Shown here one piece after another: positions 4,379-34,323 of a DNA stretch of 64,000 bases (position 1 is the stretch's first letter; every line of letters begins with the position of its first letter). The position numbers and the translations under genes are program-made. The stretch comes from Rhizobium sp. CCGE 510 (GTDB taxonomy: Bacteria; Pseudomonadota; Alphaproteobacteria; Rhizobiales; Rhizobiaceae), in contig NZ_AEYF01000008.1 in the NCBI RefSeq assembly GCF_000292525.1, positions 1-64,000 of the forward strand, in the 5' to 3' direction. The notes below the pieces were generated by a model, which did no database searches, was not told where the DNA came from, and saw nothing but the letters and a program-made list of their open reading frames with translations.

Positions 4379-4723
4379 CTAGGCCTGCGCCGCCGTGATC
4401 AGGATCTCGACCTTTAGACCCGGCCTCCCCACCCGGACTTCGCCGGATGCGCGAGCTGGTGCGTGTCCGTACGGCATCCACTCCTCCCAGATCTCATTCA
4501 CCGCAGCGAAGTCCCGCATGTCGTCGAGCCAAATCTCGGCGCGGAGTATCTGCTCGCGGGATGAATTTGACTCAGCGAGCAGCGCATCGATCTTCGCAAG
4601 GGTGTCACGGGTCTGCTTAGCGACATCATCGCCTGGCTCTCCCACCTGCCCCGCGAGGAAGACAAAGTTCTGGAATGATACGATCTGGCTCATGCGAGCG
4701 TTGGTGTGACTACGCGTGATCAT
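4379..4723 (-). CDS. RidA family enamine/imine deaminase
   Basis: A 114-residue RidA/YjgF/UK114-family protein. The family hydrolyses reactive 2-aminoacrylate-type enamines and imines released by PLP or FAD enzymes. The family core is visible in VSFQNFVFLAGQVGEPGDDV, RAEIWLDDMRDFAAVNEIWEEW and the ligand-Arg region PARASGEVRVG; canonical members have PARSTV-like sequence here. The start at 4723 has a strong GGGAGG ribosome site. It is the last gene of the importer operon, 18 nt after a permease. A FAD-dependent amino-acid dehydrogenase at 14788 in the same regulon would produce imines, which fits a detoxifying or pathway role. Confidence 0.88.
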   Translation of the reverse strand: MITRSHTNARMSQIVSFQNFVFLAGQVGEPGDDVAKQTRDTLAKIDALLAESNSSREQILRAEIWLDDMRDFAAVNEIWEEWMPYGHAPARASGEVRVGRPGLKVEILITAAQA

Positions 4724-4741
4724 GGTAGTGCCTCCCGTATT

Positions 4742-5410
4742 TCAGGTTGCTAGACGGCTGAGCACCCGTGTCTCCGCGAGCGAAACGAGGCGGGTTAGCA
4801 GGAAGCCGACAATGAAGTAGAGTATGCCCACCACCGTGAGGACTTCGATTGGACGTGCGGTCGAGTTCGCGATGTTCTGGCCGATGTACATGAGTTCCAC
4901 GGTGCCGACGGCGGACGCGAGCGAACTCTCCTTAAACAGAGCAACGGTGTTCGACAGTAGGTTGGGAATCGCGCGCATCACCATCAGAGGAATGACGACA
5001 TCGAGGATCCTCGACTTGTTGGTGAGCCCGAGCGCGGTGCAGGCGTCGTACTGTTCATGCGGGATCGACTTCAGGGCGGCGCGGAAGGACTCGCATGTCG
5101 CAGCCCCCATGAACAATGTCAGCGCAAGCGTGGACGACAGGAAGTTTCCAATTTCCAGGCCTGTCACCACCGGGAGACAGAAAAATATCCAGAACAGCAG
5201 TATGAGTACTGGCACCCCGCGGATGAGTTCGACATACATCCTGACAAAAGTGCGTACGAACGCGTTTGGCGAGCGCGACATCAACGCCAGAACCAAGCCA
5301 AGCAATGTTCCCGATAAGATGCAGATGGCAGTGAACTGAAGCGTGAGGCCCAGTCCCACCAGAAGGGTCTGCCAGTACTTCGCGACGAACGTGATATCAA
5401 AACTGGCCAT
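4742..5410 (-). CDS. Polar amino-acid ABC transporter permease (HisM/GlnP family)
   Basis: A 222-residue inner-membrane permease of the His/Glu/Gln/Arg/opine (HEQRo/PAAT) type. It opens with the cytoplasmic-membrane entry FDITFVAKYWQTLLVGLGLTL. The EAA-loop region EQYDACTALGLTNKSRILDVV and IPNLLSNTVALFKESSLAS are characteristic. It forms the second half of a heterodimeric channel with the 5419-6081 permease and lies 8 nt after it. The operon order is SBP, ATPase, permease, permease, RidA. Confidence 0.92.
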   Translation of the reverse strand: MASFDITFVAKYWQTLLVGLGLTLQFTAICILSGTLLGLVLALMSRSPNAFVRTFVRMYVELIRGVPVLILLFWIFFCLPVVTGLEIGNFLSSTLALTLFMGAATCESFRAALKSIPHEQYDACTALGLTNKSRILDVVIPLMVMRAIPNLLSNTVALFKESSLASAVGTVELMYIGQNIANSTARPIEVLTVVGILYFIVGFLLTRLVSLAETRVLSRLAT

Positions 5411-5418
5411 GGTCTGTC

Positions 5419-6081
5419 CTATCGATAAAGTTCGCTTCGCCGCTCAAGAAACCCCGCGACCTGGCCGAAGGTCACCGATATCACCAAGTAGATGAGCGCT
5501 ACGCTCGTATACGCTTCGATGGGGCGATAGGTCTGGGTCGACAGGAGCTTGCCCTGATACATGAGATCCGCGACGCCCACGAGGGCGACGAGAGCGCTCT
5601 GCTGGAACGCCCCGATGGCGTTTGTGACAAGCACGGGCATGGCGTTGCGAGCAGCCTGGGGCATGACGACATACAGCGCCGTTACCCGCCTCCCCAATCC
5701 GAGCGCGATCGCCGCGTCATGGTGGGCGGGCGGAATCCCCTGGATACTGGCCCGGTATGCTTCGGCATTGAACGCCGTCAGGTTCAGTCCGAGTATCAGC
5801 AGGCCCAGAAACTCGCCCGACCAGTAGACATTGAAGAGGATCGGGACGCAGAAGAAGAACCAGACGATCTGCAACAGGATCGGTGTACAGCGAAAGATCT
5901 CGACATAGGCGGTGTAGAGCCAGCGCAGCGGCCTGATTTGGGAAACGCCGACCAACGCCAGAAGGAACCCACAGGTAAGCCCGATGACGTTCGACCAGAT
6001 CGTCAGATACAAGGTGACCCAGAGGCCGTCGAGCAACTGGAGACCGGACGAGAGCGCGAAGTAGAAGTCGAGGTTCTGCAT
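5419..6081 (-). CDS. Polar amino-acid ABC transporter permease (HisQ/GlnP family)
   Basis: A 220-residue PAAT-family permease. I place the start at ATG 6081 (MQNLDFYFALSSGLQLLDG), preceded by a GAGG ribosome site inside the last codons of the ATPase region. The frame extends upstream to 6168, but the extra arginine-rich residues are antisense-like sequence inside the ATPase gene. Family features are VTLYLTIWSNVIGL, the EAA-loop stretch PPAHHDAAIALGLGRRVTA and TNAIGAFQQSALVALVG. It pairs with the downstream permease to form the channel. Confidence 0.9.
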   Translation of the reverse strand: MQNLDFYFALSSGLQLLDGLWVTLYLTIWSNVIGLTCGFLLALVGVSQIRPLRWLYTAYVEIFRCTPILLQIVWFFFCVPILFNVYWSGEFLGLLILGLNLTAFNAEAYRASIQGIPPAHHDAAIALGLGRRVTALYVVMPQAARNAMPVLVTNAIGAFQQSALVALVGVADLMYQGKLLSTQTYRPIEAYTSVALIYLVISVTFGQVAGFLERRSELYR

Positions 6082-6085
6082 GGCA

Positions 6086-6859
6086 CTACCTCGCGTGCAG
6101 GACGTTTTCGATGAAGTCGCGCGTTCTCTGGTTCTTCGGGTTTTCGAAGAATTCCTGCGGCGTGGCATCTTCCTGGATCACGCCGTCGGCGCAGAAGATG
6201 ACTCTCGTCGCCACCCTTCGCGCGAACCACATATCGTGGGTGACGATCATCATCGGAAGACCATTCTCCGCCAGCCCGATGATCATCTGCTCGACCTCGG
6301 AGACGAGTTCAGGATCGAGTGCCGACGTGACCTCGTCGAAAAGCATGAGTTTAGGATCCAGCATCATCGCCCGCGCAATGGCCACTCGTTGCTTTTGACC
6401 GCCGGAAAGACGGTTTGGATATTCATTTGCCTTCGCAGACAGGCCGAAGCGCTCAAGCAGTTCCCGCGCTCGCACGCTCGCGACTGCTTTCGAAACGCCG
6501 CGGCTCTTGACGGGGGCGAGTGTGAGATTCTGCATCACCGACAAGTGTGGAAAAAGCGTATAGCTCTGAAAGACCATCCCGATCGTGGAGCGAATGGTTG
6601 TGTCGATCGCTGTCCGTTTCTCCGAAGGGCCGCGTTTCACATATGCCTTCCCCTCCAGGCTGACGCTGCCAGAGTCTATCTGCTCAAGGCCCATTACGCA
6701 GCGGAGCAGAGTGCTCTTTCCTCCACCACTTGGGCCGATGACGACAACCCTGTCCTTGTTGTCCATCGATAGCGACAGGCCCTTGATGACCTGCACGTGC
6801 CCCTGCCCGTAGCTCTTATGCAGGTCACGAACCTCGATAAAACTTTGCCGATCATTCAT
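6086..6859 (-). CDS. Polar amino-acid ABC transporter ATPase (GlnQ/HisP family)
   Basis: A 257-residue ATP-binding subunit. Walker A is GPSGGGKST (residues 42-50), the signature is LSGGQKQR, Walker B is LMLFDEVTSALDPE and the H-loop is VTHDM. The Walker B continuation reads DEVTS rather than the usual DEPTS, a mild variant. It energises the two permeases encoded immediately downstream. It is separated from the preceding binding-protein gene by 105 nt containing a stem-loop (6912-6944), so its expression may be lower than that of the binding protein. Confidence 0.93.
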   Translation of the reverse strand: MNDRQSFIEVRDLHKSYGQGHVQVIKGLSLSMDNKDRVVVIGPSGGGKSTLLRCVMGLEQIDSGSVSLEGKAYVKRGPSEKRTAIDTTIRSTIGMVFQSYTLFPHLSVMQNLTLAPVKSRGVSKAVASVRARELLERFGLSAKANEYPNRLSGGQKQRVAIARAMMLDPKLMLFDEVTSALDPELVSEVEQMIIGLAENGLPMMIVTHDMWFARRVATRVIFCADGVIQEDATPQEFFENPKNQRTRDFIENVLHAR

Positions 6860-6911
6860 TCCCGGTATCCATCGCCGGAGCGGCGGCTAATTTGGCCGCT
6901 CAACTTCAAGC

Positions 6912-6944
6912 GTCGCTCCCGGGAGCATAAACTGCGGGAGCGAC
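6912..6944 (-). promoter_or_regulatory. Intercistronic stem-loop between binding-protein and ATPase genes
   Basis: A 9-bp inverted repeat, GTCGCTCCC and GGGAGCGAC, is separated by 15 nt inside the 105-nt gap after the binding-protein gene. No T-run follows on the transcribed strand, so it looks more like an mRNA-stabilising or partial-attenuation hairpin than a full terminator. Such elements commonly raise binding-protein output relative to membrane components. Confidence 0.6.
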
Positions 6945-6964
6945 CGTGATCTGAATCGACTCTA

Positions 6965-7780
6965 CTATTTCTGATCCAGCAACTTCTTTACGTAACCGTC
7001 GACGCTTGCCTTCATTTCACCCTTGGCGATCTTCTCCGCGAACAACAGATTGATCACGGCGAGATCCGCTCCGCTCACATTGCGCGGCAGACCCATGCCC
7101 ACGCCCTGCTTGGCGATCGCGGGCTCGGGAAGAACCGTGAGCCAATCCCCGCCGTTCTTGGTCGTGAAGAGAAGGTTGCTATCCGCATCGTCGACAAGGA
7201 CGTCCGCGCGACGAGACATCAGCGCCAGACGGGTGGCGTCATTGTCGGGAAGCCGGAGCATCGTCGCATTCTTGATCTGTGTCGACAGAATCTGCTCCTG
7301 CGCGGTCCCGGACATGATCGCGATCGTAACACCAGGCTTATCGAAATCTGCGAGGCTCTTCCAGCTCGCATCGATCTTCGGGTTCGCCTTGTTATGGACG
7401 ATGGACACCTGGTAGTCCCATGCGCTGTCCGTGAAGGCGATAGCAAGGGCGCGCTTCGGCGTGCGGTTCAACGCGAGCGACATGTCCCATCGGTCAGCTT
7501 GCAGGCCGGCAACGATGTTGTCCCAGCTCGTGTCGATCACCTCGGCTTTCACGCCGACGACATTTGCGATTTCCTTGCATAAATCGATGAAGGCGCCGCT
7601 AAACTCGCCGGAGACAGGATCGCGCATTACGTGTGGAGGAGCGACGGCTGCTCCGCATCTGAGAGATCCGCGGCTCTGGATTTTCTGCCAGTATCCAGGT
7701 TCCTGGGCCTGAGCGCCGGTGGCACAGAATACCAACAGACTGCCGATCGCAGCACTTCTTATTAAATTAAAAATTTTCAT
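6965..7780 (-). CDS. Polar amino-acid-type ABC substrate-binding protein (SBP_bac_3)
   Basis: A 271-residue periplasmic binding protein of the family 3 type. The signal peptide (FNLIRSAAIGSLLVFCATGA, cleavage near AQAQ) is followed by a mature N-terminus with IQSRGSLRCGAAVAPPHVMRD and SGEFSGAFIDLCKEIANVVG. The domain organisation and length are normal. It is the first gene of the minus-strand importer operon and is divergent from hyuA across a 230-bp promoter region with a palindromic operator at 7838-7860. Family members bind amino acids, opines or related zwitterions. The linked HyuAB and DadA-like genes suggest a cyclic amide or unusual amino acid as ligand, by inference. Confidence 0.9.
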   Translation of the reverse strand: MKIFNLIRSAAIGSLLVFCATGAQAQEPGYWQKIQSRGSLRCGAAVAPPHVMRDPVSGEFSGAFIDLCKEIANVVGVKAEVIDTSWDNIVAGLQADRWDMSLALNRTPKRALAIAFTDSAWDYQVSIVHNKANPKIDASWKSLADFDKPGVTIAIMSGTAQEQILSTQIKNATMLRLPDNDATRLALMSRRADVLVDDADSNLLFTTKNGGDWLTVLPEPAIAKQGVGMGLPRNVSGADLAVINLLFAEKIAKGEMKASVDGYVKKLLDQK

Positions 7781-7837
7781 CGTCGCTCTCCTCTGAGGTC
7801 TCCGGAAACTGATGTTCCGGTTATTAAAGACCCATCT

Positions 7838-7860
7838 ATTGTCGCTTTAATGTCGACAAT
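7838..7860. promoter_or_regulatory. Putative GntR operator, copy 1 (between SBP and hyuA)
   Basis: A 23-bp imperfect palindrome with outer arms ATTGTCG and CGACAAT and a central TAATG. Its right half closely matches the operator at 16880-16902 (AATGTCGACAAT against AATGTCGACCAT), with the same half-site spacing. It lies between the two divergent start codons. A degenerate further copy (TTGTCGACC, then ATCGACC) occurs at about 7960-7979. Binding by the GntR/FCD protein at 16050 is inferred. Confidence 0.6.
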
Positions 7861-8010
7861 GTCAAATGACTTTTTTCAATATTTTTCGTCATTCTAGAAT
7901 CGGAAATTGGACGCATATATCCCTTGACGTATGGGGATACTGATATTATCCAATTAAAATTGTCGACCAATGATCGACCGAAAACGACGATAATGGAGAG
8001 GGAATTTGCG

Positions 8011-10086
8011 ATGCGCACAGCCCGAATTGGGACGGACATTGGCGGAACTTTCACCGACCTCGTCCTGCTGGATAACCTTGGTCAGACTTTCTTCGCCAAG
8101 GTCTCATCCACACCTTCCGATCCCGGCGAAGCTGTTTTGACTGGAGTGAAGCAACTGCTTGAGATTGCCGGTCTGGACGTCGGCGCCGTAACGCACGTTC
8201 TTCACGGAACAACCGTAGGTTCAAATACGCTTCTTCAGCAACAGGGCGCTAAGTGTGGTCTCCTCACGACGCGCGGCTTCCGAGACATCCTTGAAATCGG
8301 TCGTCTTCGCACTCCGGTGATTTTCGACCTTCTTTGGGACAAGCCCGATCCACTGGTGGCGCGCCGCTATCGCGTCGGCATCGGCGAGCGAATGAGCGCT
8401 CAGGGTGAAGTCCTTGCTCCCGTCAATCGCGACGAAATCCTGAAAGCAGGCGAGTTCTTCAAGTCCGAAGGCGTGGAATCAGTCGCTATCTGCTTCCTCA
8501 ACTCCTACCGCAACCCCGAAAACGAGCTCGCTGCCGAGGCGATATTCCGCGAAGCTTTTCCGGATATCTGGGTCACTTCGTCCGTCTCTGTTCTTCCTGA
8601 AATCCGCGAATACGAGCGCACGTCGACGACAGCAGTCAACGCATACGTTCTCCCGTCCCTACGGAAGTATCTGCAACGTCTCGAGTCGGGACTTCGGGGT
8701 ATCGGTATCAACGCGCCGCTCCTGGTCAGCAATTCGAACGGTGGCCTTGCCACTGCTCCGATGGCACAGGAGAAGCCTGTATTCTTCATCACGTCCGGAC
8801 GCGCTGCAGGTGTTGTCGGTGCCGGACGATTGGGAAGTTCGGTCGGGATGTCCGACCTGATCGCGTTCGACATGGGCGGCACGACCGCATCGGCCTCGCT
8901 GGTTCAGAACGGCAAGCTGACGCGATCGAACGAGTATGAATTCCGTGCAGGGATTTCGACGCCGAGCCGCTTCATCAAGGCAGGCGGCTACCTCATGCGC
9001 GTCCCGAACGTAGACGTCGCCGAGGTTGGCAGCGGCGCCGGTTCTATTGCCGCGATCGATCAGGGCGGTCTGCTTCACGTAGGTCCCAGGTCGGCCGGTG
9101 CTGACCCGGGACCCGCATGCTACGGCATCGGCGGCACGGAGCCGACCGTCACCGACGCGAACGTCGTCCTCGGATACCTCCCGCCGGTTCTTGCTGGCGG
9201 CCAGATGAAGCTGGATGTCGAGGGCGCCCGCCACGCCATCGCAAGCCAGTTGGCGGGTCCTCTGGGGCTCGATATCGAAGCTGCTGCGGTCGGCGTACGT
9301 GAAGTTGCCAACGCGAACATGGCTCGCGCCATCCGGGCGGTGACTGTCGAACGCGGCGTCGATCCGCGCGACTTCACGTTGCTTGCATTCGGCGGCTCGG
9401 GTCCTGTTCACGCATGCGACCTGGCGCAGATGCTCGGCATCAAGAAAGTTCTCTTCCCGCGTGCCCCAGGCGTCTTCACCGCAATGGGAATGCTTGCCGG
9501 CAACGTCGAGCGCTATTTCATCAGAGCTCTTCCCGGATTTCTGCATGCGCTAGACACGGATGCAGCGAATACGGTGATCGACGACCTGGCAGAGCAGGCC
9601 CACCAGGCATTGAACAAGGAAGGGTATGACCGGGAAAACATGTCCCTGTCCTTCGAGCTCGACCTGCGGTTCCGCGGACAGGACTCGGAGGTACCCATCC
9701 AGATCCCGGCAAAGCTCAGCGATGCGGACCTGCCGAAGGTCCGGCAGGCCTTCCTCGATGCCTACATCGCCCTCTACGGCTACGCATCGACCGACCAGGT
9801 GGAGACAGTCAACATCAGGCTATCGGCAACCGTCGTTGGAGATATCCTCGATTTCAAGCGCCTCACGTCGAGCCAGTTCGAGGTCAGGAAAGGCACGATC
9901 GAGCACCGGAAGGTCTACTTCAGCCGTGAAAGCGGATGGGTTGACACACCGATCATCGACCGCGCGTCGTTCGATGGCGACGTCGCCGGCCCCGCCGTAC
10001 TGCAGAGCCCGGACTCGACGATCGTCGTTCCGCCCGGCGCCAAAGCGTCACTCGACGCTGCCCAAAACATCATTGTTTCGCTCTGA
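8011..10086 (+). CDS. Hydantoinase/oxoprolinase family protein, subunit A (HyuA-like)
   Basis: A 691-residue ATP-dependent HyuA-type subunit. It opens ARIGTDIGGTFTDLVLLD, the phosphate-binding turn of the actin/acetate-kinase fold, and carries a second such element near IAFDMGGTTASASLV. Related enzymes (N-methylhydantoinase, 5-oxoprolinase, caprolactamase, acetone/acetophenone carboxylase) couple ATP cleavage to lactam or imide ring opening, or to carboxylation. The frame is open from 7924, but ATG 8011 follows a GGAGAGG ribosome site and gives the standard N-terminus. The hyuB gene follows 16 nt later. Clustering with a FAD amino-acid dehydrogenase favours a cyclic amide or lactam substrate. 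The exact reaction is not readable from sequence. Confidence 0.9.
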   Translation: MRTARIGTDIGGTFTDLVLLDNLGQTFFAKVSSTPSDPGEAVLTGVKQLLEIAGLDVGAVTHVLHGTTVGSNTLLQQQGAKCGLLTTRGFRDILEIGRLRTPVIFDLLWDKPDPLVARRYRVGIGERMSAQGEVLAPVNRDEILKAGEFFKSEGVESVAICFLNSYRNPENELAAEAIFREAFPDIWVTSSVSVLPEIREYERTSTTAVNAYVLPSLRKYLQRLESGLRGIGINAPLLVSNSNGGLATAPMAQEKPVFFITSGRAAGVVGAGRLGSSVGMSDLIAFDMGGTTASASLVQNGKLTRSNEYEFRAGISTPSRFIKAGGYLMRVPNVDVAEVGSGAGSIAAIDQGGLLHVGPRSAGADPGPACYGIGGTEPTVTDANVVLGYLPPVLAGGQMKLDVEGARHAIASQLAGPLGLDIEAAAVGVREVANANMARAIRAVTVERGVDPRDFTLLAFGGSGPVHACDLAQMLGIKKVLFPRAPGVFTAMGMLAGNVERYFIRALPGFLHALDTDAANTVIDDLAEQAHQALNKEGYDRENMSLSFELDLRFRGQDSEVPIQIPAKLSDADLPKVRQAFLDAYIALYGYASTDQVETVNIRLSATVVGDILDFKRLTSSQFEVRKGTIEHRKVYFSRESGWVDTPIIDRASFDGDVAGPAVLQSPDSTIVVPPGAKASLDAAQNIIVSL

Positions 10087-10102
10087 ACGAAGGTGACCCC
10101 CC

Positions 10103-11836
10103 ATGAGCACTAGAAATATCGATCCCATCAGCTTCGCGGTCATCAAGAGCGCGCTCGACACCATCGTGGACGACATGGCCTACGCGGTCATGCGCACAGC
10201 CCGCTCGCCGATCGTCCGCGACATTCTCGACTATTCCGCGACGCTCTGCGACCGGGATGGCCGGATCCTGACACAGGCCAAGACCGTCGCGCTCCACCTG
10301 GGCGCGGTGCCGGACGCTATGGAGGTGATCACCAGCCGTTTCTCGGCAACCGCCCGCCCGGGCGACGTGTTCATCCTGAACGACCCCTACCAGGGCGGCA
10401 TGCATCTTCCGGATATCTTCATGTTCAAGCCTCTGTTCTTTAAGGACAAGATCGAGGGGTTCTCCGTTGTTATCTTCCATCACTGCGATGTCGGTGGCCG
10501 CGTTCCGGGTTCCAATGCAGCCGACTCCACGGAAATCTTCCAGGAGGGCCTCCGGATCCCGCCCGTCAAGCTGTACGACAAGGGCGAGCCGAACAATTGG
10601 ATCTTCGACATCATCCGCGAGAACGTGCGTCTTCCGGATCTCGTCATCGGCGACCTTGAATCGCAGCTTGCCACCTGCAACATCGGCGAGCGTGAATACC
10701 TGAAGCTGTTTGAACGTTACGGGTCGGACATCCTCAACGACTACTTCGACGAATTGATGGACTACGGCGAGCAGTTGACCCGCAAGGCAATCTCGTCTTG
10801 GCCGGACGGCGACTACGAGTTCACCGACTATGTGGACGGCGACGGCTTCAGCACTGCGCCGATTCCGATCAAATGCAAGATGACTGTCGCGGGCGATCAC
10901 CTTACCGTCGATTTCGAAGGAACGTCCCCCCAAGTCCGGGGCGCGATCAACCCGACATTCTCGTTCACGAAGTCGGCGACTTATCTGACGATTCGCTGCG
11001 CTCTCGACCAGGACGTGCCCAATAATGCGGGCGTCTATCGAGCGATCACCGTGAAGGCGCCGCTCGGCACCATCCTCAACCCGGTTTCCCCGGCTCCCGT
11101 CGCTGCCCGCGCCCTCACCGGATATCGCGTGATGGACACAGTCATGGGAGCCTTGGCGCAAGTTGCTCCGCACAAGGTCATCGCCGCCAGCGAAGGCGGC
11201 AATACCGTGATCGCGTTCGGCGGATACGACAAGAAGTCCGGCGAACCCTTCATTCTCGTTGACATGATCAACGGAGCATGGGGCGGCCGCTTCAACAAAG
11301 ACGGCATCGAGGGCGTCACCAATCCGGCACAGAACCTGTCGAACCTACCTGTCGAGAGCCTCGAGGCGCGCTACCCGCTGCGCATCGACGAATATTGCCT
11401 GCGTGACGATTCCTGCGGTGCGGGCGAATTCCGTGGTGGGCTCGGCCTTGCCCGCCAGTATCGTTTCCTCGCCGACGAGGCGATCCTGCAGATCCGTGCC
11501 GACCGATATGTCCACGCTCCATACGGCCTTTTCGGCGGGGAGCCTGCGGCATTGACACGCAACCTGCTCGATCCCGGCAGCGAGAGCGAAGTCCTGCTTC
11601 CCTCCAAGGTTACGCGTCAGGTGGAGAAGGGTCTCGTCTACCGGCATGAGCAATCGGGGGGCGGTGGCTACGGCGATCCGCTGAAGCGAAGCCTGGACCT
11701 GATCTCCAAGGATCTCGGCAACGGCAAGATCTCGCGCCGCTATGCCGAAGAGAAGCATGGCGTCGTTTTCGCCGGCGATGGCCTCGAGATCGACCGGCCG
11801 GCAACCGAAGCGGCCCGCAGTTCGCGGGCAGCGTAA
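10103..11836 (+). CDS. Hydantoinase B/oxoprolinase family protein (HyuB-like)
   Basis: A 577-residue HyuB-type subunit, the obligate partner of HyuA in two-subunit family members. Family features are the N-terminal region DPISFAVIKSALDTIVDDMA, DYSATLCDRDGRILTQ, FILNDPYQGGMHLPDIFMF and the C-terminal glycine-rich SGGGGYGDPLKRSLDL. The length is normal. It has a ribosome site GAAGGTGA and is co-transcribed with hyuA. The downstream isomerase and SDR genes are on the same strand after 182 nt that include a hairpin. Confidence 0.92.
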   Translation: MSTRNIDPISFAVIKSALDTIVDDMAYAVMRTARSPIVRDILDYSATLCDRDGRILTQAKTVALHLGAVPDAMEVITSRFSATARPGDVFILNDPYQGGMHLPDIFMFKPLFFKDKIEGFSVVIFHHCDVGGRVPGSNAADSTEIFQEGLRIPPVKLYDKGEPNNWIFDIIRENVRLPDLVIGDLESQLATCNIGEREYLKLFERYGSDILNDYFDELMDYGEQLTRKAISSWPDGDYEFTDYVDGDGFSTAPIPIKCKMTVAGDHLTVDFEGTSPQVRGAINPTFSFTKSATYLTIRCALDQDVPNNAGVYRAITVKAPLGTILNPVSPAPVAARALTGYRVMDTVMGALAQVAPHKVIAASEGGNTVIAFGGYDKKSGEPFILVDMINGAWGGRFNKDGIEGVTNPAQNLSNLPVESLEARYPLRIDEYCLRDDSCGAGEFRGGLGLARQYRFLADEAILQIRADRYVHAPYGLFGGEPAALTRNLLDPGSESEVLLPSKVTRQVEKGLVYRHEQSGGGGYGDPLKRSLDLISKDLGNGKISRRYAEEKHGVVFAGDGLEIDRPATEAARSSRAA

Positions 11837-11849
11837 GCTGTGACACGAT

Positions 11850-11872
11850 GAGACCCGAGCATCTCAGGTCTC
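11850..11872 (+). promoter_or_regulatory. Stem-loop in the hyuB-isomerase gap
   Basis: Nested complementary arms GAGACC...GGTCTC and GAG...CTC surround a CAT loop, with one mismatch. There is no T-run, so it may be a weak attenuator or mRNA-processing hairpin rather than a terminator. The other bases of the 11837-12018 gap show no gene I can support. Confidence 0.45.
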
Positions 11873-12018
11873 CCATCCACTGAGAGTTGCTCAAGTCGCG
11901 CGGTGGATCGTCATGGCTTTCCTCGCACGATCGCTGGCCCCACTTCTGAACCCAGCATGCGGAAACGAGACGCTCTCCATTTGGATCCCATGCAGATCAA
12001 TCCCAAAGGAGAATGCTT

Positions 12019-12864
12019 TTGGAACAGGACCTGTCACGTTTCGCGATCAATCAGATCACCACCAGATCATGGAACATGCCCGAGGCGATCGAAGGATATC
12101 GCCGGCATGGAGTTTCCGGAATCGCGATCTGGCGCGACAAGATGTACGACTACGGCGTGAAGCAGACTGCCCGTCATCTCCGTGACGCCGACATGTGGAT
12201 ACCGACCTTCTGCGCGACCGCGTGGATGAATCAGGCAGATGAGGCCGGGTTCAAGGCCACCCTCGATGAAAACAGGCAGGTACTTCGCGATGCGGCGGAA
12301 ATCGGCGCTCCAAACGTCGTATTCGTCACGGGAGGCCCGCCGCAGGGCATGAAGGATCTTCGCGGCTTTCGCTCAAGGATGCATGACGCGCTCGGCGAAC
12401 TCATCGTCACCGCCCGCGATGTCGGCATCAAGATCGGCATCGAACCCATTCACCCGATGTATGCGGGTGACCGCCATGTCATCAATACGATACGCCAGAC
12501 CAACGATCTGATCGACGAGTTCGGGGACATCCTCGGCATCGTTGCCGATGTCTATCATTGCTGGTGGGATCCGGAGTTCGAGAACGAACTGAGGCGCGCC
12601 GGACCTGAGCGAATTCTAACCTTCCATTATTGCGACTGGCTCGTTCCTACGCGCTCCTGGTTCGACCGCGGCATGGTCGGTGACGGGATTATCGATATCG
12701 CCCGCTACAAGCGTCTGCTGGACGAGATCGGTTACACAGGCCCGTTCGAGCTGGAGATCTTTTCCGATCTCGACTGGTGGAAGCGCGACCCAAACGAAAC
12801 GGTCCGGATCGGGATCGAGCGTTGCGCGCCTTTCGTCGCAAAGCTGCATAAGGGAGAGGTATAA
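12019..12864 (+). CDS. Sugar phosphate isomerase/epimerase-like TIM-barrel protein
   Basis: A protein of about 281 residues from the AP-endonuclease-2/xylose-isomerase-like TIM-barrel family, which usually binds a divalent metal. Typical metal/substrate strands are KIGIEPIHPMYAGDR, IVADVYHCWWDPE, ILTFHYCDW and GPFELEIFSDLDWW, giving Glu, Asp, His and Glu ligands. TTG 12019 is the likelier start: an AAAGGAGA ribosome site ends 6 nt before it, whereas ATG 12013 directly abuts that site. The next gene's ATG overlaps this stop (TAATG). Family members act on hydroxypyruvate, tetronates, inosose or keto sugars. Here it is a downstream enzyme of the HyuAB island, reaction unknown. Confidence 0.82.
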   Translation: MEQDLSRFAINQITTRSWNMPEAIEGYRRHGVSGIAIWRDKMYDYGVKQTARHLRDADMWIPTFCATAWMNQADEAGFKATLDENRQVLRDAAEIGAPNVVFVTGGPPQGMKDLRGFRSRMHDALGELIVTARDVGIKIGIEPIHPMYAGDRHVINTIRQTNDLIDEFGDILGIVADVYHCWWDPEFENELRRAGPERILTFHYCDWLVPTRSWFDRGMVGDGIIDIARYKRLLDEIGYTGPFELEIFSDLDWWKRDPNETVRIGIERCAPFVAKLHKGEV

Positions 12865-13631
12865 TGATGCACGCTGTCGTAACCGGCGGCGCCAGCGGGA
12901 TTGGAGAGGCAACAGCCCGTCTGCTCTCGAGAAACGGCGCCCACGTCACGCTGATCGACGTGAACGGCAAGCGCGGAGCACGTATCGCCGGCGAGATAAA
13001 CGCCGACGGGGGTAAGGCTGCTTTTCACCAGCTCGATGTGAGCAACGAGAAGGATCTGCTGGCGTTGGCAGCGGCACTCTTCGCGGAGAGGCCCGTCGAT
13101 GTACTGGTCAATTCAGCCGGGATATTGCAGAACGCTGTTCGGCTCAATGACATGGATTTGGGCGAGTTTGACCGCATAATTGATGTCAACCTAAAGGGAA
13201 CGGTCCTCGTCTGCCGCGCATTTGGAAGCCGGATGTGCGCGGCAGGTGCCGGATCAATCGTCAACCTGTGTTCGCTCACGTCGCTCACACCCTCGCCTCA
13301 GCTTGCCTACGGTATGTCCAAGGCCGCCGTCAAGATGCTGACCGAAAGCCTTGCTGCCGAACTCGGCCCATCGAACGTCAGGGTCAACGCCGTCGCGCCC
13401 GGCTACACGCTCACTCCGGCCATGCAGCAGCGTATCGACGAGGGAGCGCGAAACCCTGCGAAGATGATCGAGGCGGCCGCGCTGAGGAGACTCGTGTCTA
13501 TGGAAGACGTTGCGGAAGCGATCAATTTTCTCTCGAGCGACAAGGCATCGGCGATAACGGGCGTCGTTATTCCGGTCGATTGCGGTTTTTTGGTCGGCTC
13601 CGCCTACAATGCTTATGCCGCGCAGCCCTGA
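12864..13631 (+). CDS. SDR family NAD(P)-dependent oxidoreductase
   Basis: A 255-residue classical short-chain dehydrogenase. The cofactor motif TGGASGIGEATA is at residues 7-18, the NSAG strand is VDVLVNSAGIL, the catalytic Ser lies in NLCSLTS and the catalytic Tyr-Lys in YGMSKAAVK. The C-terminus (ITGVVIPVDCGFLVG) is the usual SDR ending. Its start overlaps the isomerase stop by 3 nt. It would oxidise a secondary alcohol, or reduce a ketone, made in the same pathway. It is the last gene of the hyuAB plus-strand unit and is followed by a hairpin. Confidence 0.9.
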   Translation: MMHAVVTGGASGIGEATARLLSRNGAHVTLIDVNGKRGARIAGEINADGGKAAFHQLDVSNEKDLLALAAALFAERPVDVLVNSAGILQNAVRLNDMDLGEFDRIIDVNLKGTVLVCRAFGSRMCAAGAGSIVNLCSLTSLTPSPQLAYGMSKAAVKMLTESLAAELGPSNVRVNAVAPGYTLTPAMQQRIDEGARNPAKMIEAAALRRLVSMEDVAEAINFLSSDKASAITGVVIPVDCGFLVGSAYNAYAAQP

Positions 13632-13636
13632 ACAAG

Positions 13637-13667
13637 ATGCCAGGAGATGCTTGCATCTCGGCATTTT
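13637..13667. terminator. Putative bidirectional terminator between convergent genes
   Basis: Arms GAGATGC and GCATCTC with a TT loop are nested in outer arms ATGCC and GGCAT, followed by TTTT on the plus strand. It lies in the 39-bp gap between the convergent SDR and shikimate-dehydrogenase-like genes. Confidence 0.6.
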
Positions 13668-13670
13668 CCT

Positions 13671-14468
13671 TCAAGCCTTCAGGCCAAAGAATTCCAGCGT
13701 CAGATCGCGTTGCATGTCGAGCATCCCGCCACCGTACCGTACATCGCACCCGATTTCCTTGGCTGCAGCGAGCAGTGGCGTAACGCGCGGCTTCATGATG
13801 ATGTCGGCTATGATCATGTCGGAGGAGATGTGATCGAGGTCGACGGGGATCGGGTCCGTCTCCGGATGCAGCCCGGACGGCGTTGCGTTGACGACGATGT
13901 CGTGCCCTCGCGGATCAATTCCGCCCAGCGTCACATTCGCCTTCGGGAAGCGCGCGAGGATCCTCTCGGCAAGATCAGTGGCGCGAGCAGTATCGAGATC
14001 GCCGAGCGTGATATGTTCGGCGCCCGCCTTCGCGAGCTGGAACCCGATCGAGGCGCCTGCTCCGCCTGCACCCACCAGAAGAACCGACTTTCCAGCAACT
14101 TCGTGAGGACCGTTAAGGACGCCCGCCATGAAGCCCGGTCCGTCGAAGTTCGCTCCCGTCAGACGTCCGTCCTCGTCACGCCGGACAGCGTTGACCGCGG
14201 TGACAAGTTCCGCTGTCTCGTCGTGTTCATCGCAAAGGAGGTAGGCCTTCTCCTTGTGCGGGACGCTCACCATGAATCCGCCGAGATTTGCAGTGCGGCG
14301 TAGGCCGTCCCACGCGGCTTCGAAATCATCAGGACGGTAATGTACCGGAATCATGATCGCATCAACCCCATTTGCCGCGAACCAGGGGTTGAACACCTCG
14401 GGCGAACGGACGTGGTCGATCGGGTGTGCGATCATGTAGAAGATCTTGGTCTTGCCTGTGATTTTCAA
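13671..14468 (-). CDS. Shikimate dehydrogenase-family protein (AroE-like)
   Basis: A protein of about 265 residues from the shikimate/quinate dehydrogenase family. Seen in order: the substrate Ser region IDHVRSPEVFN, the catalytic-Lys motif SVPHKEKAY, the partner Asp in NFDGPGF, the nucleotide-binding turn GAGGAGASIG and the C-terminal MLDMQRDLTLEFFG. TTG 14468 is the likelier start (LKITGKTKIFYMIAHPIDH) with an AGAGAGA site before it. An ATG at 14528 would place the coding start across the operator. The family also includes paralogues acting on other hydroxy acids, and clustering with catabolic genes argues against a housekeeping aroE. It is divergent from the tautomerase gene. Confidence 0.85.
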   Translation of the reverse strand: MKITGKTKIFYMIAHPIDHVRSPEVFNPWFAANGVDAIMIPVHYRPDDFEAAWDGLRRTANLGGFMVSVPHKEKAYLLCDEHDETAELVTAVNAVRRDEDGRLTGANFDGPGFMAGVLNGPHEVAGKSVLLVGAGGAGASIGFQLAKAGAEHITLGDLDTARATDLAERILARFPKANVTLGGIDPRGHDIVVNATPSGLHPETDPIPVDLDHISSDMIIADIIMKPRVTPLLAAAKEIGCDVRYGGGMLDMQRDLTLEFFGLKA

Positions 14469-14495
14469 CGCCGTGTCTCTCTTATTTTCAAGTTC

Positions 14496-14518
14496 GCGCT
14501 CGACATAATGTCGACATA
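14496..14518. promoter_or_regulatory. Putative GntR operator, copy 2 (between AroE-like and tautomerase genes)
   Basis: The core TCGACAT-A-ATGTCGA is a perfect palindrome identical to the core of the 16880-16902 site. It lies in the divergent gap between the TTG 14468 and ATG 14593 starts, so it can govern both directions. Confidence 0.7.
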
Positions 14519-14592
14519 TGATAAACAAAAGTCAGGACCGACGGCAAGCCGTAAAGAAGGTTCGATGAGAAAATCAATGTGCGAGAACGACT

Positions 14593-14784
14593 ATGCCGAT
14601 TTTGAAAGTGGAGATGCTCTCCGGGCGGACCAAGGAGCAGAAGCGTGAACTCGCAAAGGCTCTAACTGCCGAAATGGCAAGAGTGACAGGCAACAGACCG
14701 GAGACCATCCAAGTCATCTTCGCCGAGACATCCTCCGCGAACTGGGCGACCGGTGGCGTCCTTTTGGACGAACAGGGACATTGA
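14593..14784 (+). CDS. 4-oxalocrotonate tautomerase-family enzyme
   Basis: A 63-residue protein matching the small 4-OT family in length and start: MPILKVEMLSGRTKEQKREL leaves Pro as the N-terminal catalytic base once Met is removed. The conserved helix and NRPETIQVIFAE segment are present. The family tautomerises enols and 2-oxo acids or acts as a dehalogenase. The DadA-like gene starts 3 nt after the stop, so the two are co-transcribed. A tautomerase could convert the enol or imine products of that enzyme; this is inference. Confidence 0.87.
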   Translation: MPILKVEMLSGRTKEQKRELAKALTAEMARVTGNRPETIQVIFAETSSANWATGGVLLDEQGH

Positions 14785-14787
14785 TCA

Positions 14788-16038
14788 GTGGCGGCAATGG
14801 CAGACGTTACGATAGTCGGTGGCGGCATCATCGGACTGTGCTCTGCGGTGGCTTTGCAGGATCGCGGATACTCCGTCGAGATCATTGAACGCGGCGAAAT
14901 CGGTCAGGGTGCGTCTTACGGAAACTGCGGCCTTCTCGCACCCGGAGAGGTTGTACCCGTGTCGCGGCCTGGCGTCATCAAGAAGATACCGCGGTGGCTG
15001 CTTGATCCCGAGGGCCCTCTATTCGTGCGACCGGGCGCCCTGGCCCGCGACCTCACATGGCTGCTGAGATTTCTAAAGGCCGGACGTGCGGACACGGTTC
15101 GCCATATTGCTTCCTCCCTCACCCCCATGATGAAGAGGGTCAATGCCGATTACGGCGCGTTGCTTGAGCGGATCGGGCGGCCCGATCTCCTCTCGCAGGT
15201 CGAGAACCTGATGCTCTTCAATGATCGGTCAGAATACGAGCGCGATCGCTTCGTCTGGGATCTCCGGAGCGAACTAGGCTTCGGCCACACTTTCATATCT
15301 GGCCCAGAGGTCAGGCAACTGGAGCCCGCAATCGAAGGTCCCGTCACCTGCGGGGTGATCATGAAGGACTGGTATCATTTCACCGATCCTCTTGCGCTCA
15401 CGCAAGCTCTGGCGGAGGAAGTCGCCCAACGGGGCGGCAAGTTCGTGGCGGACGAGGCTCTCTCTTTTGAAAGCGAGCGCGGCCAAGTCCGCAGCGTGAA
15501 GCTACGAAGCGGAGACCGAATTGACACAAAGCAGATCGTGCTCGCTGCGGGTGCGTGGAGCGGGTCGCTCAGTCGCCAATTGGGACTGAGGATCCCACTT
15601 GCCCATCTCAGCGGATACCATGTCCACGCGCCGCATCCACAAGTCCATCTCGAGCGGGCGATCTACTATGCGTCCGGCGGATTCGTTCTTACTCCGATGG
15701 CGACAGGACTTCGGATCGGCGGAACCATCGAAATCGCCGGAGCGGATCCTGAGCCGAACTTTCGCCGGGCGGATGTTCTTGCTGAACGGGCGAAGACAAT
15801 CTTGCCCGCTCTCGACATCACCGGCAGCACTCGCTGGATGGGAGCGCGTCCCTTCATCACGGACACGATGCCGATCATCGGCAAGGCCCCGTCGTTCGGA
15901 AACGTCACACTGGCGTTCGGTCACGGACAGGTCGGGATGACGCTAGGCGCGACAACCGGACACGTTGTCGCCCAGATCATCGCCAACGAACGGCCCGTCG
16001 TCGATCTGTACCCGTTCCGCCCGCAGCGGTTTGCCTGA
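14788..16038 (+). CDS. FAD-dependent amino-acid dehydrogenase (DadA-like)
   Basis: A 416-residue DAO/DadA-family flavoprotein. The FAD-binding turn VTIVGGGIIGLCSAVALQDR is near the N-terminus. NCGLLAPGEVVP and the C-terminal WMGARPFITDTMPIIGKAP plus LAFGHGQVGMTLGATTG match D-amino-acid dehydrogenases. The start may be GTG 14788 or ATG 14797. It oxidises an amine to an imine and passes electrons to the membrane. The imino product fits the RidA at 4379, and the linked HyuAB could supply a ring-opened amino acid. It is convergent with the GntR gene, with only 11 nt between stops. Confidence 0.88.
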   Translation: MAAMADVTIVGGGIIGLCSAVALQDRGYSVEIIERGEIGQGASYGNCGLLAPGEVVPVSRPGVIKKIPRWLLDPEGPLFVRPGALARDLTWLLRFLKAGRADTVRHIASSLTPMMKRVNADYGALLERIGRPDLLSQVENLMLFNDRSEYERDRFVWDLRSELGFGHTFISGPEVRQLEPAIEGPVTCGVIMKDWYHFTDPLALTQALAEEVAQRGGKFVADEALSFESERGQVRSVKLRSGDRIDTKQIVLAAGAWSGSLSRQLGLRIPLAHLSGYHVHAPHPQVHLERAIYYASGGFVLTPMATGLRIGGTIEIAGADPEPNFRRADVLAERAKTILPALDITGSTRWMGARPFITDTMPIIGKAPSFGNVTLAFGHGQVGMTLGATTGHVVAQIIANERPVVDLYPFRPQRFA

Positions 16039-16049
16039 CGGTCTCCGCG

Positions 16050-16784
16050 TCAAGCGGTTGGTGTAAACTTCATCTTCGCTGTTACGCTCTGATCGTAATA
16101 TTCGAGGAAGCGTCCCTTGAACTGCATCGCATGTTCGTGAGCAACCAAGTCCGCATATTCGAGGTCCTTCGCCCGAATCGCCTCGATCATCTGGACGTGA
16201 TGAACTGCGACCTCCTCGAAAGACATATGTTCGGAAAGTGCCTGAAACTCGAAATGGAAGTGAAGCATGCGCCTGCCCTCGTCCAGCAGACGTTTGTAGA
16301 ACATCTGGAAATAGGTGTTCTTGCCCGCCTCGGCGATCGCCATATGGAAGTGGAAGTTGGCATCAATGTTGTAGATCGGATCCCGGGTTTTCAGGCTCTT
16401 ATTGAAACCCTTCTCGAACTCGCTCTGCAGTTTCTCGATCGTCCGGAGATCCGTATTCGTGCGGAACTGCGCCGCGAGCCTCGTCGTGGCCCGCTGCAGG
16501 AGGTCAAGGGAATCCAGATACTTCGGGACGTCTCTAAAATCGATTGGCGCCACGATCGTGCTTCTGTTCGGAAGGATATTTACGAACCCCTCGCTGGACA
16601 GGCGGACGAGCGCTTCACGAACTGGTGAACGAGAAAGGTCGAAGCGCTCGCTCAGGCTGTTTTCGTCAATCGGCGATCCCGGTGCAAGTTCGAGCCGCAG
16701 GATCTCATCTCGAAGCTGCGCGTATACGCGCGCACTTCCAGTGATCTTCTCGGCCCTATCAGATGCCGGCCCCATGTCAGCCAT
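16050..16784 (-). CDS. GntR/FadR (FCD) family transcriptional regulator
   Basis: A 244-residue regulator. The N-terminal winged helix includes SARVYAQLRDEILRLELAPG, SLSERFDLSRSPVREALVRL and the wing; a C-terminal FCD domain has metal/ligand histidines in NFHFHMAIAEAG and HHVQMIEA. It is divergent from the class II aldolase gene across 156 bp that contain the strongest operator (16880-16902). The two other copies of that operator lie in the other two divergent promoters of the island, so this is the likely local regulator and autoregulator. Confidence 0.9.
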   Translation of the reverse strand: MADMGPASDRAEKITGSARVYAQLRDEILRLELAPGSPIDENSLSERFDLSRSPVREALVRLSSEGFVNILPNRSTIVAPIDFRDVPKYLDSLDLLQRATTRLAAQFRTNTDLRTIEKLQSEFEKGFNKSLKTRDPIYNIDANFHFHMAIAEAGKNTYFQMFYKRLLDEGRRMLHFHFEFQALSEHMSFEEVAVHHVQMIEAIRAKDLEYADLVAHEHAMQFKGRFLEYYDQSVTAKMKFTPTA

Positions 16785-16879
16785 ACACTGTCACCCTCTC
16801 ATCACGCTTGAGAACACTCGTTAGCATCTCATCGGCTCTGCATCAAACAAAGCGAAAAACTCCACGCGACCATTACATA

Positions 16880-16902
16880 ATGGTCGACATAATGTCGACC
16901 AT
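16880..16902. promoter_or_regulatory. Putative GntR operator, copy 3 (perfect 23-bp palindrome)
   Basis: Arms ATGGTCGACAT and ATGTCGACCAT flank a central A. The palindrome is perfect and sits about 38 bp upstream of the aldolase start and about 95 bp upstream of the regulator start. It shares the TCGACAT-A-ATGTCGA core with the 14496 site and the right-half pattern with the 7838 site. Confidence 0.8.
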
Positions 16903-16940
16903 ATAATAGCATCCAGAGCAGAATTCCAAAAGGAGAGATC

Positions 16941-17732
16941 ATGGCACATGAGTTGAAGACCGATGCCGCCGCTCCGGCGGTTCTGAAGAACGCATCACTC
17001 GACACGCCGGAAATCATCGAAGCACGCCGGAATCTGGCTGCATGCTTCCGCATGGCCGCCAAGCTCGATCTGCAGGAAGGAATCTGCAATCACTTTTCGG
17101 CAGTTGTTCCGGGCCACTCGGACCTCTTCCTGGTCAATCCCTACGGATGGGCGTTCGCGGAAATCCGTGCATCGCAACTTCTCATCTGCGACTTCAACGG
17201 CAACGTTGTCTGCGGAGACGGCAAGCCGGAAGCCACTGCCTTCTACATTCACGCGCAGATCCACAAGGTGATGCCGCGTGCGACCGCAGCATTCCACACT
17301 CACATGCCGAATGCGACGGCGCTCTCGATGATCGAGGGAGACCCCTTTGTCTGGGCGGGCCAGACCTCGCTGAAGTTCTATGGGCGCACTGCGGTCGATG
17401 AGAACTACAACGGCCTCGCGCTGGGCTACGACGAGGGCCTCCGCATTGCCGAAGCGATAGCAGACGCAGACATCGTCTTCATGCGCAATCATGGCGTGAT
17501 GGTTCTCGGCCCGACGATTGCCGAAGCGTTCGACGATCTCTACTATCTGGAGCGCGCCGCCGAGGTGCAGCTCAAGGCAATGGGAAGCGGCCGCAGCCTT
17601 GTTCGTATCCCGCACGAGATTGCCCAGAAGGCCTATCTGGAAATGCGCGAGGGCGATCCGGAAAGCGCGCGACTCCATCTGGCCAGCGTCCGCCGACAGC
17701 TTCAGGCATCCGAACCTGAATACGCAGACTGA
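16941..17732 (+). CDS. Class II aldolase/adducin family protein
   Basis: A 263-residue zinc-dependent aldolase/decarboxylase-like enzyme (fuculose aldolase/AraD fold). Metal ligands are visible in AAFHTHMPNATAL and in FMRNHGVMVLG; EGICNHFSAVVPG is the usual first loop. The ATG has a strong AAAGGAGAG site. It is the only gene rightward from the GntR promoter before decayed DNA. Relatives cleave or decarboxylate sugar-acid or 2-oxo-acid intermediates, so it may perform the final carbon-carbon cleavage of the island's pathway (inference). Confidence 0.9.
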   Translation: MAHELKTDAAAPAVLKNASLDTPEIIEARRNLAACFRMAAKLDLQEGICNHFSAVVPGHSDLFLVNPYGWAFAEIRASQLLICDFNGNVVCGDGKPEATAFYIHAQIHKVMPRATAAFHTHMPNATALSMIEGDPFVWAGQTSLKFYGRTAVDENYNGLALGYDEGLRIAEAIADADIVFMRNHGVMVLGPTIAEAFDDLYYLERAAEVQLKAMGSGRSLVRIPHEIAQKAYLEMREGDPESARLHLASVRRQLQASEPEYAD

Positions 17733-34240: not shown

Positions 34241-34304
34241 ATACGGTACGTATGTGTAATAGCAAGCATACGGGGCGTATGTCAAATCCATATACGTTAC
34301 GTAT
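34241..34304. promoter_or_regulatory. Three TetR-type operators, ATACG-N3-CGTAT
   Basis: Perfect inverted half-sites ATACG and CGTAT with 3-bp spacers occur at 34241-34253, 34268-34280 and 34292-34304, spaced 27 and 24 bp apart. They fill the gap between ridA and tetR. Binding by the adjacent TetR protein is inferred. Confidence 0.8.
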
Positions 34305-34323
34305 GTGGAATGGGCAGGGTTGA

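Follow-up and report, generated by a model that had tools for sequence, protein, structure and literature searches.

The HypR regulon, which White et al. reportedly described in 2012 for Sinorhizobium meliloti and other proteobacteria, is among the described systems closest to the catabolic locus analyzed here. S. meliloti HypR, the nearest characterized relative of the regulator at this locus, is a negative regulator according to a passage in PMC5343134. For the FadR subfamily of GntR proteins, an excerpt of Suvorova et al. 2015 (PMC4494728) defines the operator motif as TKGT/ACMA with a core of GT-N2/3-AC, gives GT-N2-AC, i.e., one box, as the motif of the HypR group, and places weaker half-sites 7-12 nucleotides from the site centre in 13 FadR-subfamily groups. 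The FCD-domain regulator Atu1419 of Agrobacterium was crystallized with one dimer of its tetramer on a 10-base-pair (bp) palindrome, ATGTATACAT (part of PMC7797058). We analyzed a stretch of 64,000 nucleotides from Rhizobium sp. CCGE 510 (contig NZ_AEYF01000008.1, positions 1 to 64,000; hereafter the window) that contains a catabolic island with its own FCD-type GntR protein, GntR. The local regulon of this island is real, well conserved and of a familiar kind, and its interesting part is a phased multi-box operator; we consider it likely that the island forms an autoregulated local repressor circuit, in which the GntR protein would act through four paired-box operators.

The four operator sites are:

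Operator 1a, 7838..7860, + strand: boxes 7841-7846 and 7852-7857, in the promoter of the divergent importer unit
Operator 1b, 7959..7981, - strand: boxes 7962-7967 and 7973-7978, directly before hyuA
Operator 2, 14496..14518, + strand: boxes 14499-14504 and 14510-14515, between the aroE-like gene and tautomerase-dadA
Operator 3, 16880..16902, + strand: boxes 16883-16888 and 16894-16899, an exact pair, between gntR and the aldolase gene

The initial annotation had recognized 1a, 2 and 3; these sites are real, their coordinates are correct and each is flanked by divergent genes, but the fourth site, 1b, had been overlooked. Operator 3 is the perfect 23-bp palindrome that had been claimed, and it is the sole match at 11 of 11 arm positions in the window when lengths of 22 and 23 bp are tested. 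The TCGAC arms described as common to all three sites do not extend to operator 1a, whose left arm reads TCGCT; this site is the weaker, with 16 of 23 self-complementary positions. Operator 2 has 14 of 23 self-complementary positions and perfect arms in its core 15-mer, TCGACATAATGTCGA, while operator 1b has the sequence GTCGAC-CAATG-ATCGAC and is found in both close orthologous islands too. What all four sites share is two GTCGAC-like hexamers whose starts lie 11 bp apart. Each site holds at least one GT-CG-AC box, which agrees with the FadR-subfamily core, and operator 2 contains ATGTCGACAT, which has the same shape as the Atu1419 box. Elsewhere in the window, a 23-bp near-palindrome at 34287-34309, TCCATATACGTTACGTATGTGGA (10 of 11 arm positions), has no relation to the operator motif.

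Orthologous islands are present on plasmids of S. fredii NXT3 and R. leguminosarum WSM2304, whose regulators are 95% and 94% identical to the one in the window, and across these three islands the four sites are conserved blocks. In alignments of the three intergenic regions, 85 of 92 site columns are invariant, compared with 262 of 418 other columns (Fisher p 2.5e-9, columns taken as independent); by site, the invariant columns number 23 of 23 for 1a, 17 of 23 for 1b, 23 of 23 for 2 and 22 of 23 for 3. The sole change in operator 3 is a central A/T that preserves its symmetry, and in operator 1b the boxes are retained while the spacer and flanks vary.

The sites also stand out in searches of the 6.92-Mb genome. 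The exact 15-mer TCGACATAATGTCGA has two copies, both inside this island, and its sole other one-mismatch copy falls within a coding frame; the exact pattern GTCGAC-N5-GTCGAC occurs at operator 3 alone. A site profile was built from an ungapped set, because a MAFFT alignment of the sites displaced some rows, and it used 10 of 15 sites (three islands with four each, plus three from Bosea), the other five closely repeating those used. When 150 of 4937 first-look candidates in the genome were scored with this profile, the four sites ranked first (E 0.003-0.046) and the next other place had an E of 1.9, a ranking that is partly by construction, as four of the 10 sites come from the window. Within the window the sites scored 17.1-20.9 bits and the best match elsewhere 6.8 bits, on which basis other window genes were rejected as regulon members. 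A second matrix took its 39 training sites from 18 fetched loci (35 sites) and from Bosea and CB3060 (four sites), leaving out the window and its two near-identical orthologues; its five best matches in the window (17.5-31.8 bits) all lie on the four sites, one of them as a register shifted 11 bp over operator 2, and the next place scored 12.9 bits. A loose pattern with three mismatches was useless as a specificity test (186 found, 128 expected).

The protein proposed to act at these sites is encoded by:

gntR, 16050..16784, - strand: FCD-domain GntR regulator, proposed repressor (from Pfam and tree)

Its product has the domains of the FadR subfamily, namely Pfam GntR PF00392 (61.9 bits, cut-off 27, E 4.5e-17) and FCD PF07729 (54.9 bits, cut-off 24.3, E 1.5e-14). 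Its sequence also contains D141-A-N-F-H145 and histidines 195, 196, 216 and 218, candidate positions for the FadR-subfamily metal motif, D-x3-H plus two further histidines. For comparison, homologue loci were limited to the 30 best among 162 genomes with a family-search match, with orientation by tblastn, and 45 GntR rows were analyzed, including that of the window (L025, which duplicates the record L054, was left out). An 11-bp-spaced pair, with at most one mismatch and at most 400 bp upstream, was found in 27 of these 45 rows, compared with a mean of 0.09 and a maximum of 1 in 200 shuffles. In a maximum-likelihood tree (root for drawing only), all 27 pair-bearing rows fall in one 31-row clade with support 98/91, and none of the 14 rows outside it has a pair at this threshold. 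All 31 clade rows have R-S-P or R-A-P as the core of the recognition helix; outside the clade this core is R-T-P in 10 of 14 rows, and the remaining four have R-S-P yet no pair. The link between the GntR protein and its sites that the initial annotation had drawn thus gains support, as the operator type tracks the regulator clade and is seen again in some islands of different gene order, where it precedes hyuA, the importer or gntR. A second GntR group (L042-L047, L049-L051 and L053; helix RTPIRE), which shows no upstream GTCGAC pair at one mismatch or fewer, presumably uses another operator.

The genes of the island, in the order of the window, are:

RidA family protein, 4379..4723, - strand: last gene of the importer unit, annotated in orthologous islands
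Importer permeases and ATPase, 4742..6859 (open reading frames 4742-5410, 5419-6168 and 6086-6859), - strand: from annotation of orthologous islands
Importer solute-binding protein, 6965..7780, - strand: shares 57% identity with its counterpart in this genome's hyp-type island
hyuA, 8011..10086, + strand: hydantoinase A/oxoprolinase, start as in an equal-length annotated orthologue
hyuB, 10103..11836, + strand: hydantoinase B/oxoprolinase, by protein family match
Xylose-isomerase-like TIM barrel protein, 12013..12864, + strand: by protein family match
SDR oxidoreductase, 12864..13631, + strand: not in the R. leguminosarum island
aroE-like gene, 13671..14468, - strand: shikimate dehydrogenase family protein, start from the length of an annotated orthologue
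4-Oxalocrotonate tautomerase family protein, 14593..14784, + strand: by protein family match
dadA-like gene, 14788..16038, + strand: flavin adenine dinucleotide (FAD) amino-acid dehydrogenase that shares 38% identity with the HypO-like protein of this genome
Class II aldolase/adducin family protein, 16941..17732, + strand: Pfam Aldolase_II, and NCBIfam PRK06486 above cut-off

The importer parts are 53-66% identical, and DadA 38% identical, to parts of the genome's own hyp-type island, and the system therefore looks like a duplicated, re-tooled relative of hydroxyproline uptake and oxidation, with DadA, judged by its sequence, a distant relative of HypO. The NCBIfam models nearest to HyuAB are caprolactamase subunits, at scores below their cut-offs, and a cyclic amino acid or lactam is a reasonable candidate for the substrate and inducer. 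The gene order from ridA to the aldolase gene (4379-17732) is the same on both rhizobial plasmids. Beyond the aldolase gene the genes differ in all three islands, the gene beyond ridA differs between the window and R. leguminosarum, and the R. leguminosarum island has no space for the SDR gene; the island with its operators may be mobile as a unit.

The regulator clade consists of two parts, a window type and a HypR type. The window protein belongs to an 8-row group (support 97/92) with proteins of S. fredii, R. leguminosarum, Bosea, CB3060, R. jaguaris and two others, and the HypR-like protein of the same genome (L075) lies in the other group. HypR-type members adjoin genes matching the hydroxyproline set in S. 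meliloti and in this genome (the hyp names rest on gene resemblance and on a portion of PMC5343134). Dihydrodipicolinate-synthase- and aldehyde-dehydrogenase-type genes adjoin the HypR-like gene on C45, and no protein of these types or of the proline-racemase type was found among the 10 island proteins scanned. The window does share the HypR-type operator, two GTCGAC-like boxes 11 bp apart and upstream. The best reading of these sequence comparisons is that the gntR product would be a paralogue of HypR, in a sister group of the HypR-type hydroxyproline regulators.

This kinship raises the possibility of a two-regulator regulon, in which the paralogous HypR-like regulator also acts at these sites or is even their main user. 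This HypR-like protein is 46-48% identical to the window protein, shares its RSPVRE helix and NRSTIVAPI wing, and has box pairs of its own at C45:779099 and 779128, and the importer and dadA are paralogous to those of the hyp-type island. However, the spacer and flanks are AT-rich in the window but CTNCG-like in most HypR-type sites of the family, the HypR sites are not among the window-profile matches at E of 10 or less among the candidates scored, and each island has its own regulator adjoining its sites. We therefore regard such sharing as unlikely, though it is the strongest of the alternatives. Crosstalk is nevertheless possible, given that helix core and box type are common to both regulators, and of the 'complete single-regulator regulon' read by the initial annotation, the local link is retained, while a single regulator and completeness are possibilities.

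The regulon envisaged by that annotation is also modified in its operator unit, as it comprises four sites instead of three, each of which most likely consists of two 10-bp boxes spaced 11 bp apart and not of a single 23-bp palindrome. The alternative, in which a single dimer spans all 23 bp of the palindrome and the TCGAC arms serve as half-sites, draws on the perfect symmetry of operator 3 over 23 bp and on the left arm's outer TGT, which is retained in weaker sites. Tandem copies of a palindromic box always form a larger palindrome, and that of operator 3 arises because GTCGAC is self-complementary and present there in two good tandem copies. Further, the left box has degenerated but the right GTCGAC is intact in HypR-type sites (which were selected by their core) and in the tautomerase promoters of CB3060 and R. 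jaguaris. Three HypR-type relatives of a third family carry three-box arrays at 11-bp steps upstream of gntR (exact in L088 and L089, with one deviation in each outer box in L091); such arrays fit a unit of 10-11 bp per dimer, do not follow from a single 23-bp palindrome, and point to the box as the probable operator unit. With the one-box motif given for the HypR group in the excerpt of PMC4494728, this evidence makes the single palindrome improbable. We offer tentatively, as a serious possibility, a broader proposal: operators across the clade would be built from two or three 10-bp boxes, one per dimer, that repeat in helical phase every 11 bp; neighbouring dimers or a tetramer would fill them cooperatively, with box number and quality setting the strength of repression, and the island would be a second system, duplicated from the hydroxyproline system with its operator code kept, whose regulators could cross-talk.

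From the sites, their conservation, the 11-bp spacing and the link to the regulator clade, a circuit can be drawn in which binding, repression rather than activation, the dimer arrangement and the inducer are predicted features. The GntR protein, of FCD type in the FadR subfamily, would bind GTCGAC-type boxes of about 10 bp with one dimer per box, and the two boxes of each operator, 11 bp apart, would let two neighbouring dimers, or one tetramer, occupy the same face of the helix. The four operators, at three divergent promoters, would cover promoter or start regions and shut off six units: importer-ridA, hyuAB-TIM-SDR, the aroE-like gene, tautomerase-dadA, the aldolase gene and gntR itself. 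The operators would be freed when an inducer occupies the FCD pocket; this inducer is probably a lactam or cyclic amino acid, either imported or made by the pathway. Looping of DNA between 1a and 1b is conceivable; their distance, 121 bp here and 122 bp in both orthologues, is no tight helical multiple.

The position of the sites relative to promoter-like elements bears on the sign of control. Operator 1a lies within a TTGACA-16-GACAAT match on the - strand, operator 2 abuts, with a one-base overlap, the second hexamer of a - strand match, and operator 3 extends over the first hexamer of a TCGACA-17-TAGCAT match and over most of its spacer; 2, 1 and 1 such sigma-70-like matches were found in the regions of 1a, 2 and 3, compared with 0.7, 0.1 and 0.2 in shuffles. 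In addition, a conserved CTTGAC precedes operator 1b (by eye in the alignment). This overlap, together with the reported negative role of S. meliloti HypR, favours repression by blocking of RNA polymerase, with autoregulation. Activation by the GntR protein, as by FadR at some promoters, has a precedent, since a passage of PMC6608401 states that the position of the FadR site decides between repression and activation; with sites that overlap or abut promoter-like elements and a nearest characterized relative reported as negative (PMC5343134, in part), it is rather a remote prospect here.

Sites of the same type are found in other gene orders. A scan of contigs gave six loci, of which Bosea alone was used, the other five being 24-32% identical. 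Of the three sites in Bosea (regulator 60% identical), one precedes hyuA, one precedes the solute-binding protein and one lies upstream of gntR. Two genomes of another family have an exact pair between gntR and hyuA, ahead of hyuAB, and a second pair before gntR, with one mismatch in one genome and two in the other. In Rhizobium sp. CB3060 (L056), window-type and hydroxyproline-type islands adjoin, and HypR-type box pairs are present at 9906 and 9934, between a hypD-like gene and an open reading frame of 591 residues. The product of the latter is presumably aconitase X-like.

Several observations weigh against the repressor circuit that we favour. Operator 1a has two core mismatches. In CB3060 and R. 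jaguaris (regulators 53-55% identical), the gntR and tautomerase promoters have one full box with a weak partner (2 or 3 mismatches), and no pair at two mismatches or fewer was found before hyuA; therefore, the regulon has shrunk there or uses poorer sites. Four of the 31 clade rows lack a pair at one mismatch (the pair of L086 has two mismatches, L056 and L057 each combine a full box with a weak one, and none was found in L040), and the 45 rows are best-scoring loci, many of them close kin and not independent cases. The training sites of the second matrix were, all but two, picked by the same core, and its ranking probes flanks and position more than the core. The promoter matches come from consensus scans only. 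Finally, the genome-wide motif search that had been proposed as a check gave a mixed answer: the profile lists no further good site among the candidates scored, but the core pair with one mismatch is common, at 57 genome places compared with 23 for the reversed control pattern. With a core that is not rare, it is therefore the flanks, position and conservation that carry the argument. Twelve non-island core-pair places, taken from 50 of the 57, all lie in open frames of at least 211 codons, a control that is not clean because sites 1b and 2 likewise lie in frames open upstream of hyuA and aroE. That the sites are chance palindromes of GC-rich DNA can still be dismissed as extremely improbable. 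GTCGAC alone is common (34 occurrences in the window) and the loose pattern frequent, but the exact 15-mer is restricted to the island, the sites are conserved and head the matrix ranking, and the pair is confined to one regulator clade among the 45 rows.

A literature search, mostly outside subscription journals, showed no description of this island or its operators among the papers listed. The predicted circuit, with one regulator, four sites and six transcription units, is directly testable in rhizobia. The presence in one genome of a sister pair, the island GntR and the HypR-like protein, with nearly the same DNA code provides a case for studying how crosstalk is retained or lost in duplicated catabolic repressors, and the two- and three-box arrays at 11-bp steps offer a natural series for analyzing cooperativity in FCD-type GntR proteins. 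In addition, the gene set, which combines a hydroxyproline-like importer and D-amino acid dehydrogenase with an oxoprolinase/hydantoinase-type pair, points to a cyclic amino acid or lactam as putative substrate.

When compared with known systems, the island resembles the HypR regulon: the two regulators form sister groups (about 46-50% identity), paired boxes with the 11-bp spacing precede both regulator genes, and the island's importer and FAD dehydrogenase are paralogous to those of this genome's hyp-type island; the negative, autoregulated local regulon reported for HypR (a passage in PMC5343134) is predicted for the island. The two differ in that most HypR-type promoters of the family carry two pairs at a distance of 29 bp and a spacer richer in GC, and in their enzymes, the island encoding HyuAB and AroE-like, tautomerase and aldolase proteins where hyp islands encode HypD-, HypH- and racemase-like proteins. 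Atu1419 of Agrobacterium fabrum, in the VanR group (PDB 6z74, 6za0-6zab; phmmer E 1.4e-12 with the gntR product, residues 14-133 of 244 aligned), is likewise an FCD regulator with a compact 10-bp palindromic box that has a G-T-N2-A-C core, has two boxes in one divergent promoter and represses its own gene and catabolic genes, as is predicted for the island. However, its boxes are separated by 109-190 bp, a distance that a tetramer can bridge by looping, whereas those of the island are 11 bp apart, and its effector is a folate. Escherichia coli NanR is also a FadR-subfamily repressor with closely spaced operator repeats bound cooperatively by several adjacent dimers (part of PMC8012715), an arrangement that the island suggests from its sequence; the NanR repeat is GGTATA, and its cooperativity requires a 32-residue N-terminal extension, whereas the island GntR has about 17 residues before its helix-turn-helix match. 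The weaker boxes of Suvorova et al. 2015 also lie beside GntR-family sites, but the second box in the operators analyzed here is often complete and at a fixed 11 bp, and three relatives add a third.

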